Shown one piece after another: positions 35,810 to 42,131 of a stretch of 64,000 nt of DNA. The first letter of the stretch is position 1. The number at the start of each line of letters is the position of its first letter. A program made the position numbers and the translations under genes. The notes under the pieces were generated by a model that was not told the DNA's origin, did not search any database, and worked only from the letters and a program-made list of their open reading frames with translations. The DNA is taken from positions 1 through 64,000 of the forward strand of contig JAGXIO010000118.1 in assembly GCA_024635555.1 (NCBI GenBank), written 5' to 3'. Origin of the DNA: Saccharicrinis sp. (GTDB taxonomy: Bacteria > Bacteroidota > Bacteroidia > Bacteroidales > Marinilabiliaceae).

Positions 35810-37108
35810 CTATTTTAACAGGAATCTTTTTAACTCGTCTAAATTAGCTTTTATTGCTATACTTTTTGCTTCACCTTTCATAAAGGCTTGCAGCCTAAGA
35901 GGCACATCTATCTTACGCCCAATTGCGGGTTCTATCACTTCCGGAAATTTGGCAGGATGCGCTGTTTCTAGAAAAACGCCTATTTTATTACTTGTCAATA
36001 TTTTTTCTAAAGCCAAATACCCCGTGGTTCCATGCGGATCCATCACATAGTTAAAGGTTTGATCGACACGCCTCACCCCTTCTCTAATTTCATCGTCGGT
36101 AAATGCAATACCTTCTATTTTTGATTTCACCAGGTTATGGTCGGAGGCAAAAATATCGAGAATACGCACAAAATTACTGGGGTCGCCAACGTCCATAGCA
36201 TTAGCTACGGTACTTTTAGAAGGTGTCGGCACATACAAACCGGTTTGCAAATATTGGGGTACGATATCGTTGATATTGGTAGCAGCGATAAACCGTTTGA
36301 TGGGAAGCCCCATAGCCTGTGCTAATAGTCCGGCTGTTAAATTGCCAAAATTACCACTGGGCACACAAAAAACAATATCGTCTTTTATCCCTGCCTTTTG
36401 CATTTGTGCGTAGGCATAATAATAATATACAGATTGGGGTAAAAGACGTGCCAAGTTGATGGAGTTAGCCGAGGTGAGAACTAATTTTTCGTTCAGCTCA
36501 GAATCCATAAACGCTTCCTTAACTATACGCTGGCAATCGTCAAAAGTACCTTCCACTTCCAAAGAGGTAATGTTATGCCCCAAGGTTGTAAATTGTTTTT
36601 CTTGCACCTGGCTCACCATTCCCTTTGGGTAAAGTACCTGCACTTTTATCCCTGGCACCTTATAAAAACCATTAGCCACAGCACTTCCTGTATCGCCAGA
36701 AGTGGCCACCAAAACATTGATCTCCTCATTGCGACCTTTGGCAAAGTGCGATAAGATACGCGCCATAAAACGAGCTCCTACATCCTTAAAAGCCAAAGTA
36801 GGGCCATGGAAAAGTTCAAGTGAGTATATGTTTTTGCTCACCTTTACTATAGGAATATCGAAGTTAAGTGACTCTTGTACTATTGTTTTAAACGTTTCCT
36901 CGGGTATATCCGGGCAAAAGAAGGGCTTGAGGACTTCAAAACCTATTTCGGGTAATGATTTTTGGCCTATACTTGCAAAGAAAGAGGCATTCAATGTGGG
37001 GATTGTTTCAGGCATGTATAAGCCTTTATCAGGTGCAAGCCCCCGAAGCACAGCCTCCTTTAGGCTAACTTTTGTATCGGGTGAATTGGTGCTGTAATAT
37101 TGCATCAT
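35810..37108 (-). CDS. thrC: Threonine synthase
   Basis: A 432-residue PLP enzyme, last step of threonine synthesis (O-phosphohomoserine to threonine). The PLP lysine is in L-A-F-K-D-V-G-A-R-F near residue 109, preceded by the N-terminal Y-Y-S-T-N. A-T-S-G-D-T-G-S-A and P-S-G-N-F-G-N-L-T-A-G hold the cofactor phosphate and substrate. It is the third gene of the thr operon, 18 bases after the kinase gene. Confidence 0.95.
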   Translation of the reverse strand: MMQYYSTNSPDTKVSLKEAVLRGLAPDKGLYMPETIPTLNASFFASIGQKSLPEIGFEVLKPFFCPDIPEETFKTIVQESLNFDIPIVKVSKNIYSLELFHGPTLAFKDVGARFMARILSHFAKGRNEEINVLVATSGDTGSAVANGFYKVPGIKVQVLYPKGMVSQVQEKQFTTLGHNITSLEVEGTFDDCQRIVKEAFMDSELNEKLVLTSANSINLARLLPQSVYYYYAYAQMQKAGIKDDIVFCVPSGNFGNLTAGLLAQAMGLPIKRFIAATNINDIVPQYLQTGLYVPTPSKSTVANAMDVGDPSNFVRILDIFASDHNLVKSKIEGIAFTDDEIREGVRRVDQTFNYVMDPHGTTGYLALEKILTSNKIGVFLETAHPAKFPEVIEPAIGRKIDVPLRLQAFMKGEAKSIAIKANLDELKRFLLK

Positions 37109-37126: not shown

Positions 37127-38332
37127 TCACTTCAACAGTAACTTCATAAACTCTGGGCCATATAATTTTCCGTAGCCGCCAGCCTTGGCTGATTCTTCGT
37201 CATATTGCATTACGCCATCAGGTTTTTGACCAGGTTTTTTGATAAAAAACGGAACGGCGTCCCTGGTATGGGTTCTGAGGGCGCAGGGCGTAGGATGATC
37301 GGGAAGCAAGGCAATGGTAACTGGCTCGTCCATTTTTTCAATCTCTTCGACCAAATATTTAACCACCCTCTGATCCAAGTACTCTATTGTTTTGGTTTTA
37401 AGCACATAATCACCTTCATGCCCTGCTTCGTCGCTGGCCTCGATATGCAGGAATACGTACTGATTTTGCTTTAATGCTTCGATGGCTGCTTTGGCTTTGC
37501 CTTCGTAATTGGTATCGTAAAGACCTGTTGAACCCTCTACATGCACACCTTTGAGGCCTGCATATGCACCCAATCCGTATATCAGATCCACCGCCGAGAT
37601 AACCACGCCAGATTCAATTCCATATAAGTCTTTGAGTGTAGGCATATCGGGGGTATTTCCTGCCGACCAGGGCCAAATCATGTCGGCAGCAGGTTTGCCA
37701 GCCTTTCTCCTTTTCACGTTTAAGGGATGATCTTTCAATAAATCTATTGATTTTAGCATCAACTCGCTTACTATGTTTACTGTATCTTGAGCAGCTTCTT
37801 CCAGGGCTTTAGGCATCACTTCTTTAAAAGGTGTGCCGATAACGTCGTGGGGAGGTATACAGTTTATTTTGTCGCTTCCTCCGCCCAGTACCAGAAGATG
37901 GCGATAGCTGACACCGGGATAAAAGCTCACTTTCTCTGTGCCCAGTTTATCCTGTAAAAACAGCATCAATTCTTTGGCTTCGGCCGTTGAAATATGCCCA
38001 GCAGAATGGTTTAATATTTTTTGATCTTCTAGTGAGATCAGGTTGCAGCGAAACACCAAATCGGAGAGTGAGGTCTTCACTCCCATCGATGCAGCTTCGA
38101 GCACACCGCGGCCTCTGTAATATTTGGCGGCATCGTATCCCATTACCATCATATTGGCAACCTCGCTACCGGGATGCAATGAGGGTGGAACTGTATCCAA
38201 AAGGCCCGAAACTGCTTCAGAGCATAATTTATCGATGTAAGGCGTGTGGGCAGCCATCAATGGTGTTTTATTTCCTAATTCTTTGATGGGTTCATCAGAA
38301 GCCCCATCTGCTAATATAACTAAGTATTTCAT
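37127..38332 (-). CDS. ApgM-type kinase/mutase, probable homoserine kinase
   Basis: A 401-residue alkaline-phosphatase-superfamily protein. Homology is to archaeal cofactor-independent phosphoglycerate mutase. The start is M-K-Y-L-V-I-L-A-D-G at 38332; 11 upstream codons are unlikely. Metal and nucleophile motifs L-A-D-G-A-S-D-E, G-S-E-V-A-N-M, E-A-S-D-E-A-G-H-E-G-D and L-L-P-D-H-P-T-P are present. No thrB-type GHMP homoserine kinase is seen between thrA and thrC, and this family replaces it in Bacteroidota. It therefore most likely phosphorylates homoserine rather than interconverting phosphoglycerates. Confidence 0.85.
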   Translation of the reverse strand: MKYLVILADGASDEPIKELGNKTPLMAAHTPYIDKLCSEAVSGLLDTVPPSLHPGSEVANMMVMGYDAAKYYRGRGVLEAASMGVKTSLSDLVFRCNLISLEDQKILNHSAGHISTAEAKELMLFLQDKLGTEKVSFYPGVSYRHLLVLGGGSDKINCIPPHDVIGTPFKEVMPKALEEAAQDTVNIVSELMLKSIDLLKDHPLNVKRRKAGKPAADMIWPWSAGNTPDMPTLKDLYGIESGVVISAVDLIYGLGAYAGLKGVHVEGSTGLYDTNYEGKAKAAIEALKQNQYVFLHIEASDEAGHEGDYVLKTKTIEYLDQRVVKYLVEEIEKMDEPVTIALLPDHPTPCALRTHTRDAVPFFIKKPGQKPDGVMQYDEESAKAGGYGKLYGPEFMKLLLK

Positions 38333-38342
38333 ATGTTTAAAA

Positions 38343-38377
38343 TTAGATAATAGACTGATAGACATTAGATAAGAGAC
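38343..38377. repeat. TTAGATAAKAGAC repeat pair in the apgM-type gene leader
   Basis: Two copies (38343-38355 and 38365-38377), one of which is identical to the copy at 43292. Both loci lie within about 45 bases upstream of a minus-strand start codon preceded by the same TTTAAAATTAG stretch. Confidence 0.6.
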
Positions 38378-38431: not shown

Positions 38432-40864
38432 CTACTGATTGGCTACTTTAATGATGTCGCCAAAAACACCTGCGGCAGTAACCTCGGCACCTGCTCCGTA
38501 ACCCTTTATTTGCATTGGGTGTTCCTTATAATGCTCCGAGTTGATTAAAATGATATTATTGCTTCCTTCCAGATCGTAAAAAGGATGCTGACTATCTACC
38601 TCGATAAAACCCACGGAAGCTTTTCCGTTTTCGAGTTTGGCAGCGTACCTCAGCTTTTTACCCTTAGCTACGAGTTCCTTACGGTATTCTTCAAAGTCAG
38701 CATCATACTGTTTTATGTTATTCATAAACTGTTCTATGGTATGTGCATCCATGTATTTTTGCGGAACAAATGGTGTGACCTCAATATCGCTTTGCTCCAT
38801 GGGATAGCCGGACTCCCTAGCTAGAATTAAAATTTTTCGTACCACATCGATACCGCTAAGATCTAGCCTTGGGTCGGGTTCGGTAAAACCTTTATCTCTG
38901 GCCTCCTGAATTACAGCAGACAGAGGTTTGCTTTGACCTACGGTGTTTACGATAAAATTTAAACTACCTGAAAGCACTGCCTCTAGCTTTAAAATTTTAT
39001 CGCCGCTCATCACCATGCTATTCAATGGGGCAATAATAGGCAACCCCGCTCCTACGTTGGTTTCAAACAAGAATTTGACACCTTTGTTCAGTGCTGTTGA
39101 TTTAAGTTTTTGGTAGAGCACAAACGCTGATGAGCTCGCAATTTTATTGGCCGTAACTACCGAGACGTTAGATTCCAACATGCTTTGATATACTGAGGCC
39201 ACGGCGGCATTGGCGGTACAATCCACCAATACACTGTTGGCAAGGTTATATCGGATGATATGTTCTTTAAACACCTCTAAGTTGGCTTTTTCGCCCTGTC
39301 CTGTTAAGTCGTCAAAAAGTGTTTTTACGTTCAATCCTTGCAAATCGAGCAACATTTTACGGCTGTTGCTTATTCCAGCCACCCTGATTTTAAGTTTGTT
39401 ATGCTCTGCAAGTTTTTCGGTTTGTGCTATTATTTTTTCAATCAACATTTTACCCACAGTACCCGTACCCACCAAAAATAAATTGACTACCGCATACTGG
39501 GAAAGGAAAAAAGCTTCGTGTGCTGCATTGAGACCTTTTTTTAAATCCTTGTCTTTTACCACAAAAGAGATATTTAGCTCGGATGCTCCCTGCGCAATGG
39601 CAAAAATATTGATACCATTTTTTCCCATGCTCTCGAACAGTGTTCCGGAGATTCCTGTTGTTCGTTTCATGTTTTCGCCTACGATGGCAATAATGGCCAT
39701 ATCCGTTTCTACGGATATATTATTTATCTGATTTAGTGCTATTTCGGGTGAAAATTCTAATTTGACCATATCAACGGCACTCTCGGCGGTAGGTGTGTCT
39801 ATAACTACGCTAATAGAGTTTTCGGAGGAAGCCTGCGAAATAAGGATTACATTGATATCTTTTTGCGCCAGCGATTTAAATAAACGCATGGCAATACCTG
39901 TAACACCTATCATACCAATACCCTGAACCGTAAGCAGTGACACATCCTTAACGGAAGAGATACCCTTAATTTTTTTACCGTTCACAGGTAATGCCTGATT
40001 ACTTATTAAAGTACCTACTGCGTCGGGGTTAAATGTGTTTTTAATACGTATGGGAATGTTTTTTTTATACACCGGCAATATGGTGGGTGGAAAAATCACC
40101 TTAGCTCCAAAATGCGAAAGCTCCATGGCCTCGGAGTATGTGAGGCTATCAATACAATAGGCACGGCTTATAATTTTAGGATCGGCGGTCATAAAACCGT
40201 TTACATCAGTCCATATTTCCAATATAGATGCATCATAGGTAGCAGCAATAATAGCTGCGGTATAATCGGAGCCACCTCGACCTAAGGTGGTTATCTCATT
40301 TTTTTGGTTAGAAGCAATAAATCCAGGAAAAACGCTGATTTTACCCAGGTTATCCTTTAAAGTATTTAGATTTTTTTCCGTTAATTCAATATTAACAGCT
40401 TCCTTACCAAAAACTTTATCGGTAATAATAAAGTTTTGCGACTCAATGAGTGAGGCTTCAACAATAACTTCGGAAAGAATGAACGACGATATCCTTTCGC
40501 CAAAGCTTGAAATAATAGCCTTGCTCTTATAGGTCATCTCTTTAAGCATGAACACTCCTTTAACAATGGTGCTCAGTTCATCAAAAAGTTGATCGACTTT
40601 AAATTTAATGTTGCGGGCTTCATTAAGCGGAAACAGCTCACTTATTATTTTATAGTGCTTTTCCTTTATTTCGCTATAAATATCAAAACACTCCTGATTG
40701 CCTTGCTGAGCCATTTCGGCAGCTCGGATTAGTGCATCGGTTACACCGCCCACAGCAGAAACTACAACAATAACTTGCTCTTGCTGTGACTCTACAATTC
40801 TTTTTACCAATAGGATGCTATCTGAGGAACCTACAGATGTACCTCCAAATTTTAATACCTTCAT
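38432..40864 (-). CDS. thrA: Bifunctional aspartokinase / homoserine dehydrogenase
   Basis: An 810-residue fused enzyme catalysing the first and third steps towards threonine and methionine. The kinase domain starts with M-K-V-L-K-F-G-G-T-S-V-G; two ACT regulatory domains lie near 310-460 (V-Q-G-I-G-M-I-G-V-T-G-I-A, A-I-V-G-E-N-M). The homoserine dehydrogenase NAD(P) motif is F-L-V-G-T-G-T-V-G near 465 and its catalytic segment L-D-L-S-G-I-D-V-V-R-K is near 695. It is the first structural gene after the Thr-rich leader. Confidence 0.95.
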   Translation of the reverse strand: MKVLKFGGTSVGSSDSILLVKRIVESQQEQVIVVVSAVGGVTDALIRAAEMAQQGNQECFDIYSEIKEKHYKIISELFPLNEARNIKFKVDQLFDELSTIVKGVFMLKEMTYKSKAIISSFGERISSFILSEVIVEASLIESQNFIITDKVFGKEAVNIELTEKNLNTLKDNLGKISVFPGFIASNQKNEITTLGRGGSDYTAAIIAATYDASILEIWTDVNGFMTADPKIISRAYCIDSLTYSEAMELSHFGAKVIFPPTILPVYKKNIPIRIKNTFNPDAVGTLISNQALPVNGKKIKGISSVKDVSLLTVQGIGMIGVTGIAMRLFKSLAQKDINVILISQASSENSISVVIDTPTAESAVDMVKLEFSPEIALNQINNISVETDMAIIAIVGENMKRTTGISGTLFESMGKNGINIFAIAQGASELNISFVVKDKDLKKGLNAAHEAFFLSQYAVVNLFLVGTGTVGKMLIEKIIAQTEKLAEHNKLKIRVAGISNSRKMLLDLQGLNVKTLFDDLTGQGEKANLEVFKEHIIRYNLANSVLVDCTANAAVASVYQSMLESNVSVVTANKIASSSAFVLYQKLKSTALNKGVKFLFETNVGAGLPIIAPLNSMVMSGDKILKLEAVLSGSLNFIVNTVGQSKPLSAVIQEARDKGFTEPDPRLDLSGIDVVRKILILARESGYPMEQSDIEVTPFVPQKYMDAHTIEQFMNNIKQYDADFEEYRKELVAKGKKLRYAAKLENGKASVGFIEVDSQHPFYDLEGSNNIILINSEHYKEHPMQIKGYGAGAEVTAAGVFGDIIKVANQ

Positions 40865-41058
40865 ACCAATGCAAATATATTTACTATTATGATTGCGAAT
40901 AAAACGTCTTATGTTTTTAGTGATTTTTATTTATCGTTACCGTTGCTGATAACGGAAATAAAGAACGGTACTATTTCTGATAATTTTTCATTCAGAAAGG
41001 GGGTTCAAGGTCAATCAAATAATTAAGTATTGACAACCTGAATACGGAAGAATAATAG
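40865..41058 (-). promoter_or_regulatory. Attenuator-like leader of the thr operon
   Basis: The minus-strand RNA of this 194-base gap can fold in competing ways. GGTAACGAT (plus 40933-40941) is perfectly complementary to ATCGTTACC in the leader ORF (plus 41089-41097); the same segment also pairs with the nearby ACCGTT (plus 40975-40980). GGGGGTT at the leader end pairs with AACCCCC (plus 40999-41005), and TTTCTGA/TCAGAAA forms a local hairpin. I do not see a classic stem followed by a T-tract, so the mechanism (termination or ribosome access) is open. Confidence 0.55.
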
Positions 41059-41127
41059 TTAAACCCCCCCAGGGGTAATGGTAGAAGAGGTAACGATGGT
41101 GACGGTATAGCGTAATTTGCAAATCAT
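41059..41127 (-). CDS. thrL: Threonine operon leader peptide
   Basis: A 22-codon ORF from ATG (41127-41125) to TAA (41061-41059). Residues 8-18 read T-V-T-I-V-T-S-S-T-I-T: five Thr and two Ile codons, the amino acids that control thr operons in enterobacteria, where thrL is similarly Thr/Ile-rich. All five Thr codons are ACC. It lies 36 bases after a good promoter and 194 bases before thrA. The sequence carries a C7 run near its end. It is not homologous to enterobacterial thrL; the gene symbol is by function and position. Confidence 0.78.
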   Translation of the reverse strand: MICKLRYTVTIVTSSTITPGGV

Positions 41128-41162
41128 AAGCTATTATTGTGTTTTTCTTATAAACTATAATG

Positions 41163-41191
41163 CAAAAATAGACATTTATTTAAATTTTCAA
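41163..41191 (-). promoter_or_regulatory. Promoter of the thr operon
   Basis: On the minus strand TTG (41191-41189), an 18-base spacer and TATTTTTG (41170-41163) match the Bacteroidota consensus; the leader ATG is 35 bases downstream. Confidence 0.75.
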
Positions 41192-41240
41192 AATAAAGGA
41201 TGATTTATAGCATGCTTTTAATGCTGAATAAAGGGCTGTT

Positions 41241-42131
41241 TCATCTTTTTGTTGCCTTTTCGAAGTTATATTTTGAAATACTTCTGTAATAATTAGGTGA
41301 TTCCTCCACAAAATAATACAGTCCACCCCAATTGTGTTTAACTTTATAAAAAACTTTTTGAAAGGCGCCATTTTTTATTATTACACGAGTAATTACCTTA
41401 GCTTTTAATGGGTACACCTCGATGAATTTACCATCAGTATAATTTTTTTTTAAAGGGGGCAATCCAAACTGGTTCTTATTGTCGATAACAGGTACTTTTA
41501 AATTGTGCGTGACTTTGGATTGAGCCGAAGTGGAAGCCATGGAATTTTTTGTTTCTACATTTTTTTGATAATGAAGTGCTTTTGCTTCCTGTGCTTTTGT
41601 GATACTATTATTTGTAAGCTTTTTTTGGGGCACTGCTTGTTTACGCCATGCATAGTATTGCTTCTGGAATGTGTTAATTTTTTCTTTCACTATCAGCAAG
41701 TAGTCGAGGTCGTATTCAAAATCGTTTATTTTGTTTGAATAGGTGATTTTGGCCACCGGGTTTTTAAAAAAAGTAGTATCGGCATTTGGAAAGGTGGAAA
41801 ATAGCTCAACAAGTATTTCGTACGGGTAGATATTTTTTTTTTCGATATCGCCGGGGACAGTGGTTGAAAAATTAATTTTCTTACCAACATAGCCCGGCTT
41901 TGAAAAATAAAATTGATAATTTTTATCCCAATCCAAATAAGTTGTAAAATTACCGTCAATATCCACGGGAATTCTTGTTGTTTTTTGGTCGAGTAAAATA
42001 GATAAGCTGACTTTTGATGCTTTCCCATCCCTTACAAACACAGTACCCCGCACGGGATATTTGTCCTGTGATTTGAGCATGCCCATACCAAGTACTAAGA
42101 TGAGTAGGATAAGTACGCATCTCTTCATCAT
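41241..42131 (-). CDS. Exported protein of unknown function
   Basis: A 296-residue protein with a signal peptide ending near K-S-Q-D. The first 110 residues look like a carboxypeptidase-regulatory-like beta domain (V-R-G-T-V-F-V-R-D-G-K, D-I-D-G-N-F-T-T-Y). The rest is lysine-rich and low in recognisable motifs, with a short Y/K/F-rich end. Related in plan to TonB-plug-like envelope proteins, but no partner is visible. Terminates 50 bases before the thr promoter. Confidence 0.6.
   Translation of the reverse strand: MMKRCVLILLILVLGMGMLKSQDKYPVRGTVFVRDGKASKVSLSILLDQKTTRIPVDIDGNFTTYLDWDKNYQFYFSKPGYVGKKINFSTTVPGDIEKKNIYPYEILVELFSTFPNADTTFFKNPVAKITYSNKINDFEYDLDYLLIVKEKINTFQKQYYAWRKQAVPQKKLTNNSITKAQEAKALHYQKNVETKNSMASTSAQSKVTHNLKVPVIDNKNQFGLPPLKKNYTDGKFIEVYPLKAKVITRVIIKNGAFQKVFYKVKHNWGGLYYFVEESPNYYRSISKYNFEKATKR

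Follow-up and report, generated by a model that had tools for sequence, protein, structure and literature searches.

A threonine- and isoleucine-rich leader ORF closed by a stop-codon hairpin upstream of the thr operon in Bacteroidota

Upstream of thrA in the window, by which we mean the whole 64,000-nucleotide stretch of DNA analysed, lies a short leader open reading frame (ORF) rich in threonine and isoleucine codons. Judged from sequence comparison, this leader ORF is real, and we consider it rather probable that the element acts as a leader-peptide regulator of the thr operon with a transcriptional readout. As far as the sequences tell, the design of the regulator is not that of a textbook attenuator: threonine and isoleucine, and elsewhere also methionine, would be sensed, and the leader ends at a short GC hairpin, named P1. 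The part that we regard as new is this stop-codon hairpin without a conserved terminator.

Results

A leader ORF upstream of thrA

The thr operon of the window and its leader region comprise the following features.

35810..37108, minus strand: thrC, threonine synthase (TIGR00260)
37127..38365, minus strand: proposed homoserine kinase (TIGR02535; phosphoglycerate-mutase models also fit the same protein)
38432..40864, minus strand: thrA, bifunctional aspartate kinase / homoserine dehydrogenase I, the first gene of the operon
41006..41040, minus strand: P2, a second hairpin, conserved within the genus in position and not in sequence
41059..41127, minus strand: leader ORF MICKLRYTVTIVTSSTITPGGV plus stop, with its ATG at 41127 and its TAA ending at 41059; position conserved
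41063..41076, minus strand: P1, GC hairpin ACCCC-UGGG-GGGGU closing the leader ORF, with the stop codon directly after it; conserved core
41163..41191, minus strand: putative promoter TTG-N18-TATTTTTG, which fits the Bacteroidota -7 box TAnnTTTG

The operon has the order thrA–homoserine kinase–thrC. The initial annotation had described a 22-codon ORF with five threonine codons, all ACC, together with isoleucine codons, a promoter ahead of it (41191..41163) and a gap of 194 bases between the leader stop and thrA, and all of these are present in the sequence. Isoleucine stands at residues 11 and 17 and also at residue 2, and the leader holds no Trp codon. When the region was shuffled 5,000 times with its dinucleotide composition kept, 23 of the shuffles (0.46%) contained an ATG ORF of 12-30 codons encoding five or more Thr, and across the whole window at least five Thr were found in 2 of 507 ATG ORFs of this length. 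The shuffle rate is modest on its own, and it is conservation that settles the leader ORF as more than chance.

Conservation and distribution of the leader

The upstream regions of 146 genes for fused aspartokinase–homoserine dehydrogenase were collected, with loci numbered from L001 onward. This count omits the pattern-search loci L049-L087, the trp loci L168-L171, the duplicates L098 and L116, which were the only duplicates removed, and the loci L048, L107, L176 and L182, in which the thrA start was not recognised. All nine genomes of the window's genus that were examined have an ATG ORF at the same place ending in the same core; eight of these leaders contain at least four Thr codons, and the ninth (L009) has one Thr and three Ile codons and keeps P1. 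Across the collection, an in-frame leader with the conserved core was found in 43 of the 146 regions, or 44 with L131, a P1-type leader lost from the 43 through a length filter. By core pattern, a leader of the P1 type is absent from 103 of the 146 regions and from 12 of the 30 same-family loci L001-L030, and both numbers, like the single Thr codon of L009, count against the regulator reading.

Pairwise comparison of the seven ungapped genus leaders over codons 1-17 gave 108, 70 and 152 differences at codon positions 1, 2 and 3, respectively, whereas a downstream noncoding control gave 232, 207 and 222. Threonine is retained in the genus leaders across exchanges among ACC, ACT, ACA and ACG. 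These codon-position changes indicate that the leader ORF is probably translated, and the earlier proposal of a Thr/Ile-rich ORF before the thr operon extends to the relatives, in which place, codon pattern and promoter are kept. Of the 43 leaders, 35 have a TAnnTTTG box at a distance of 8-90 nt ahead of their ATG, against 7.9% of shuffles; this sequence is the consensus given in PMC9723704.

When 393 genomes of the order were scanned with the narrower pattern AYNACCCCTTRGGGG, 36 of them matched, at 36 places in all, compared with 17 matches of the reversed control pattern. Of the 35 places inspected, 29 are upstream of thr genes (27 thrA and 2 thrB) and 6 elsewhere; the 36th is the earlier locus L032. 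The 27 thrA places are those within 500 nt upstream of thrA; four were already among the earlier loci, and one, L217, is missing the in-frame ATG. The two thrB places, L212 and L213, have the same Thr-run leader and stop-codon hairpin before thrB (homoserine kinase) and not before thrA, about 110 nt upstream of the genes at 1612 and 1616; their Thr runs are about 8 and 11 codons long. A profile identified the L212 gene as a homoserine kinase, and the L213 gene was assigned from its likeness to L212. Since both thrA and thrB are preceded by the element, it appears to track threonine genes and no single particular gene, and its spread suggests that it is old within the Bacteroidota. Some relatives (L097, L106, L114, L133 and L210) have Met codons near the leader end, which fits because the fused aspartate kinase / homoserine dehydrogenase also serves methionine and isoleucine synthesis.

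A hairpin at the leader stop codon

The conserved P1 core reads ACCCC-UNN-GGGG, mostly followed by GU or U, and either holds the leader stop codon or just precedes it, as in ACC CCU UGG GGG GUC UAG and ACC CCU UAG GGG GU. Pro in the core is followed by Trp, Gly, Arg, Leu, Val or a stop, and with such variation the constraint here seems to act on the RNA and not on the peptide. Since the core-based leader set had been found by the core itself, a separate test was made with leaders chosen by Thr content alone. Among the 23 of 146 regions that qualified, 17 have a strong hairpin with a loop of 3-5 nt at the stop codon; for random windows drawn from these regions, the figure is 92 of 4,209. The window's own leader falls just below the Thr-content threshold and is not among the 23. 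The six remaining regions comprise L122, which has a weaker hairpin, L029, whose P1 lies outside the measured stretch, L045 and L187, which are of the textbook type described below, and L163 and L191, which are probably not leaders. Pairing is also kept in two arm-swapped forms of P1 whose loop contains the stop codon, namely ACGGG-GUAA-CCCGU (L177) and ACGGG-GUGA-CCCGU (L184), and a further variant, ACCCUG-UAA-CAGGGU, is found in L046. P1 is absent from the minimum-energy folds of both the window and L002, where the G-run pairs downstream instead, and this counts against the regulator reading.

The pattern ACCCCTNDGGGGG gave 35 matches in 61 genomes, 20 of them upstream of thrA, with 7 for the reversed control. 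P1 was also considered as a general signal of amino-acid operons, and this idea was rejected: none of the 15 matches away from thrA in these genomes is like a short Thr leader, nine of them overlap open frames of at least 400 nt, and the 15 look like chance. The pattern ACCCCTNNGGGGGNT was a poor choice that failed to find the majority of sites, and another early pattern was too strict (1 of 41 genomes).

The RNA between P1 and thrA

For the RNA downstream of P1, 63 P1-type leaders were collapsed to 60. L002, a near copy of L001, was omitted from the profile of the leaders with the core pattern and from the Thr-codon helix test on 42 leaders described below. At +10..+14 after P1, the 60 leaders contain 56% U and 4% G. 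In order after P1 come an A/U-rich, nearly G-free tract, a C-richer stretch and then often GGU (41055-41033 in the window, and the equivalent positions elsewhere). GGU occurs at +18..+31 in 21 of 60 leaders and at +27..+40 in 14 of 60, compared with 2 of 60 and 3 of 60 in the two preceding windows and 2 of 58 at +45. The G-poor A/U tract would fit a hairpin-stabilised pause of the polymerase, and tract and GGU together could be a pause or loading signal.

P2 had a mean fold z of -3.9 over the nine genus genomes at +33..+75 from the P1 start, an interval that was picked after viewing the folds; regular 45-nt windows gave -1.9 at +40 and otherwise values between -0.9 and +0.3. For the window's leader as a whole, the fold energy does not stand out (z -1.67). 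In five Bacteroidales loci, L097, L106, L114, L173 and L174, P1 is followed at about 15-55 nt by a second hairpin in which a sequence around TTTCTACGTGA recurs, slightly changed in L174.

A strict scan for intrinsic terminators found none in the window's leader. Such a terminator lies between P1 and the gene in 12 of the 63 P1-type leaders, and three of the 12 belong to the window's genus. Among shuffled sequences the count was 20 of 189, so that P1-type leaders show no clear excess. P1 was rejected as an intrinsic terminator itself, as at least five T in the 7 nt after P1 were present in only 2 of 63. No conserved antiterminator exclusive with a terminator was found among the P1-type leaders.

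The initial annotation had proposed an attenuator based on two pairings, whose segments are as follows.

41089..41097, minus strand: ATCGTTACC, a 9-base segment inside the Thr codons; its partner is lost in L002
40933..40941, minus strand: GGTAACGAT, the complement of ATCGTTACC; not conserved
41059..41070, minus strand: 5' arm of a helix specific to the window, GGGGGGGUUUAA : UUGAACCCCC, which extends the GGGGGTT pairing; a shorter form occurs in L002, and it is otherwise not conserved
40999..41008, minus strand: 3' arm of the same helix; contains AACCCCC (41005..40999)

The 9-base complementarity is present in the window but broken in L002, the nearest relative (thrA 95% identical), which keeps ATCGTTACC and has lost GGTAACGAT; alone it is unremarkable, since an arithmetic estimate gives about 0.2 such 9-mer pairs per 330 bases. 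The pairing of GGGGGTT with AACCCCC is also present and extends to 10-11 bp, dominates the window's minimum-energy fold and is above chance in the window sequence, where about 1% of 300 shuffles were as good, but it is not conserved. As a conserved antiterminator half, the 3' arm of P1 was rejected: over 33 leaders, its partner beats 95% of shuffles in one, the window itself, and the mean fraction of shuffles as good was 0.60. What stands of the attenuation reading is a Thr/Ile leader, to all appearances translated, before the thr operon; the specific attenuator pairings are not conserved.

A candidate helix that pairs the Thr codons with RNA 15-40 nt past P1 gave p 0.0008 in 42 leaders as the best of 15 combinations. 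On 21 independent loci, those that remained of the 35 scan loci once repeated or near-identical ones and those not next to thr genes had been dropped, it gave p 0.58, with p 0.013 combined, and this candidate is unproven and was set aside.

Textbook-type attenuators elsewhere in the phylum

Five loci picked by eye (L187, L188, L189, L190 and L045), from other Bacteroidota families, resemble the window in having a Thr/Ile(/Met) leader before a fused thrA. Unlike the window, they carry a strong terminator and a candidate antiterminator at the leader end, and the P1 pattern is not matched in them. Their hairpins, of -17 to -23 kcal/mol, run into T-rich sequence, which is weakest in L188 (TTCTTC); the leader of this locus, read by eye, is MTTIMSIMGDVQSWR. 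An upstream complement to the 5' side of the terminator was equalled by 7, 5, 40, 31 and 7 of 500 shuffles in L187, L188, L189, L190 and L045, respectively.

Discussion

Proposed mechanism and alternatives

Threonine is probably sensed through translation of the leader, a view that the comparison of relatives supports well, and we infer that P1 is read out by pausing, by Rho or by other means. When charged Thr-tRNA is scarce, a ribosome would stall at the Thr codons that directly precede P1, and the 5' arm of P1 would stay unpaired. When threonine is plentiful, the ribosome would enter P1, terminate there and leave, and P1 would fold. The folded hairpin might then hold RNA polymerase over the following A/U-rich tract or expose G-poor RNA to Rho, and fewer transcripts would reach thrA; in the window's genus, P2 is positioned where a terminator could act. 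In a further reading, the thr operon of Bacteroidota would have a leader switch without an intrinsic terminator of its own, in which the stop-codon hairpin reports completion of the peptide and a pause or Rho brings about premature termination. We put this last reading forward tentatively, as one possibility that deserves to be taken seriously.

A closely related explanation gives the decisive role to Rho alone: a stalled ribosome would hide the RNA and, once the ribosome has left at P1, Rho would load on the G-poor RNA and stop transcription before thrA. It draws on the lack of a clear terminator excess among P1-type leaders and on seven loci (L011, L012, L018, L024, L025, L027 and L044) in which only 60-71 nt separate the leader stop from thrA, apparently too little for a terminator hairpin; the putative Rho site, however, rests on composition, a weak argument in an A/T-rich genome, and we regard this version as possible but somewhat doubtful. 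A textbook four-segment attenuator, in which the Thr-codon segment or the G-run pairs downstream in competition with a terminator hairpin, would agree with the presence of both pairings in the window, with the strong 10-11 bp G-run helix of its minimum-energy fold and with the five thr examples found elsewhere in the phylum. Against it stand the strict scan, which finds no terminator in the window's leader, the 9-base pairing broken in L002 and the G-run partner, which among 33 leaders is better than 95% of shuffles in the window alone; together they make it improbable here.

It is very improbable that P1 is a binding site for a protein, on DNA or RNA, which the Thr-rich ORF overlaps by coincidence. 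The CCCC/GGGG core is nearly invariant, beyond the needs of a hairpin, and this would suit such a site, although it is so partly by construction because the set was picked by the core. The arm-swapped forms keep pairing and location on the stop codon, Thr codons are kept by synonymous change, and the core matches away from thrA come without a Thr leader and look like chance, all of which speak against such a site. Hardly any credence is left for a chance ORF without function: the shuffle frequency means that the window alone is no proof, but position, peptide, promoter and P1 are conserved across families.

Comparison with known leaders

The thrL attenuator of the enterobacterial thrABC operon, named Thr_leader in Rfam, encodes a leader peptide rich in Thr and Ile, and the position of the ribosome senses charged tRNA. 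The window shares with it a Thr/Ile-rich leader before a threonine operon, and ribosome sensing would be a further likeness. Unlike thrL, P1-type leaders have no conserved terminator/antiterminator pair, and their stop lies in or beside a short GC hairpin. No match at the gathering score was found among 4,227 Rfam families for the window and 20 related loci, and 40850..41250 gave only two chance-level matches (E 3 and 8.6). The leader may be a version independent of the enterobacterial one, as the initial annotation suggested.

A leader at this place would be of interest since Bacteroidota are abundant in the gut and the environment and RNA-level amino-acid sensing is little described in the literature found for them; their mRNAs mostly have no Shine-Dalgarno sequences. 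A leader that is conserved, carries a hairpin at its stop codon and shows no terminator would offer a compact test case for the coupling of translation and transcription, and annotators could mark a small ORF that is widespread and unlabelled.

For Flavobacterium psychrophilum, PMC9723704 reports clues for leader-peptide attenuation before amino-acid operons, and pheA and hisG are among the conserved structured 5' elements that it lists; no thr leader is named in the passages covered. The phylum and the general idea are shared with the leader described here. Other sources describe small ORFs of B. thetaiotaomicron reminiscent of leader peptides (PMC7366714), list Bacteroid-trp (PMC2864571) and count leader genes near start codons (PMC4833913). 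The literature search found no description of a Bacteroidota thr leader in the portions of the sources available. A comparative attenuation study of 2004 by Vitreschak and colleagues is said to have perhaps mentioned some Bacteroidetes operons, so that priority for the bare idea is uncertain.

The Bacteroid-trp family (RF01692) resembles the thr leader in that its peptide abounds in the amino acid that the operon makes, and it is represented in the same phylum and in a genome of the same genus. Its model gave no match at the thr locus of the window. By eye and in folds, the trp leaders L168-L171 have a long hairpin that runs into a T-run, whereas nothing comparable follows the thr leaders of the same genus. 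The textbook thr and trp attenuators in relatives imply that the phylum uses such attenuators, yet the thr leader of the window seems to be differently built. In L170 (G003, from the window's genus), a Trp-run leader MTKIMNNTWWWHWLFSKEKR at 1520 on its own minus strand is followed by a T-run terminator, and the locus scored 45.6 bits against RF01692, where the cut-off is 49. Across 31 relatives the Bacteroid-trp model gave four matches at E 0.001 and one above the cut-off, so the model may miss family members in these relatives.
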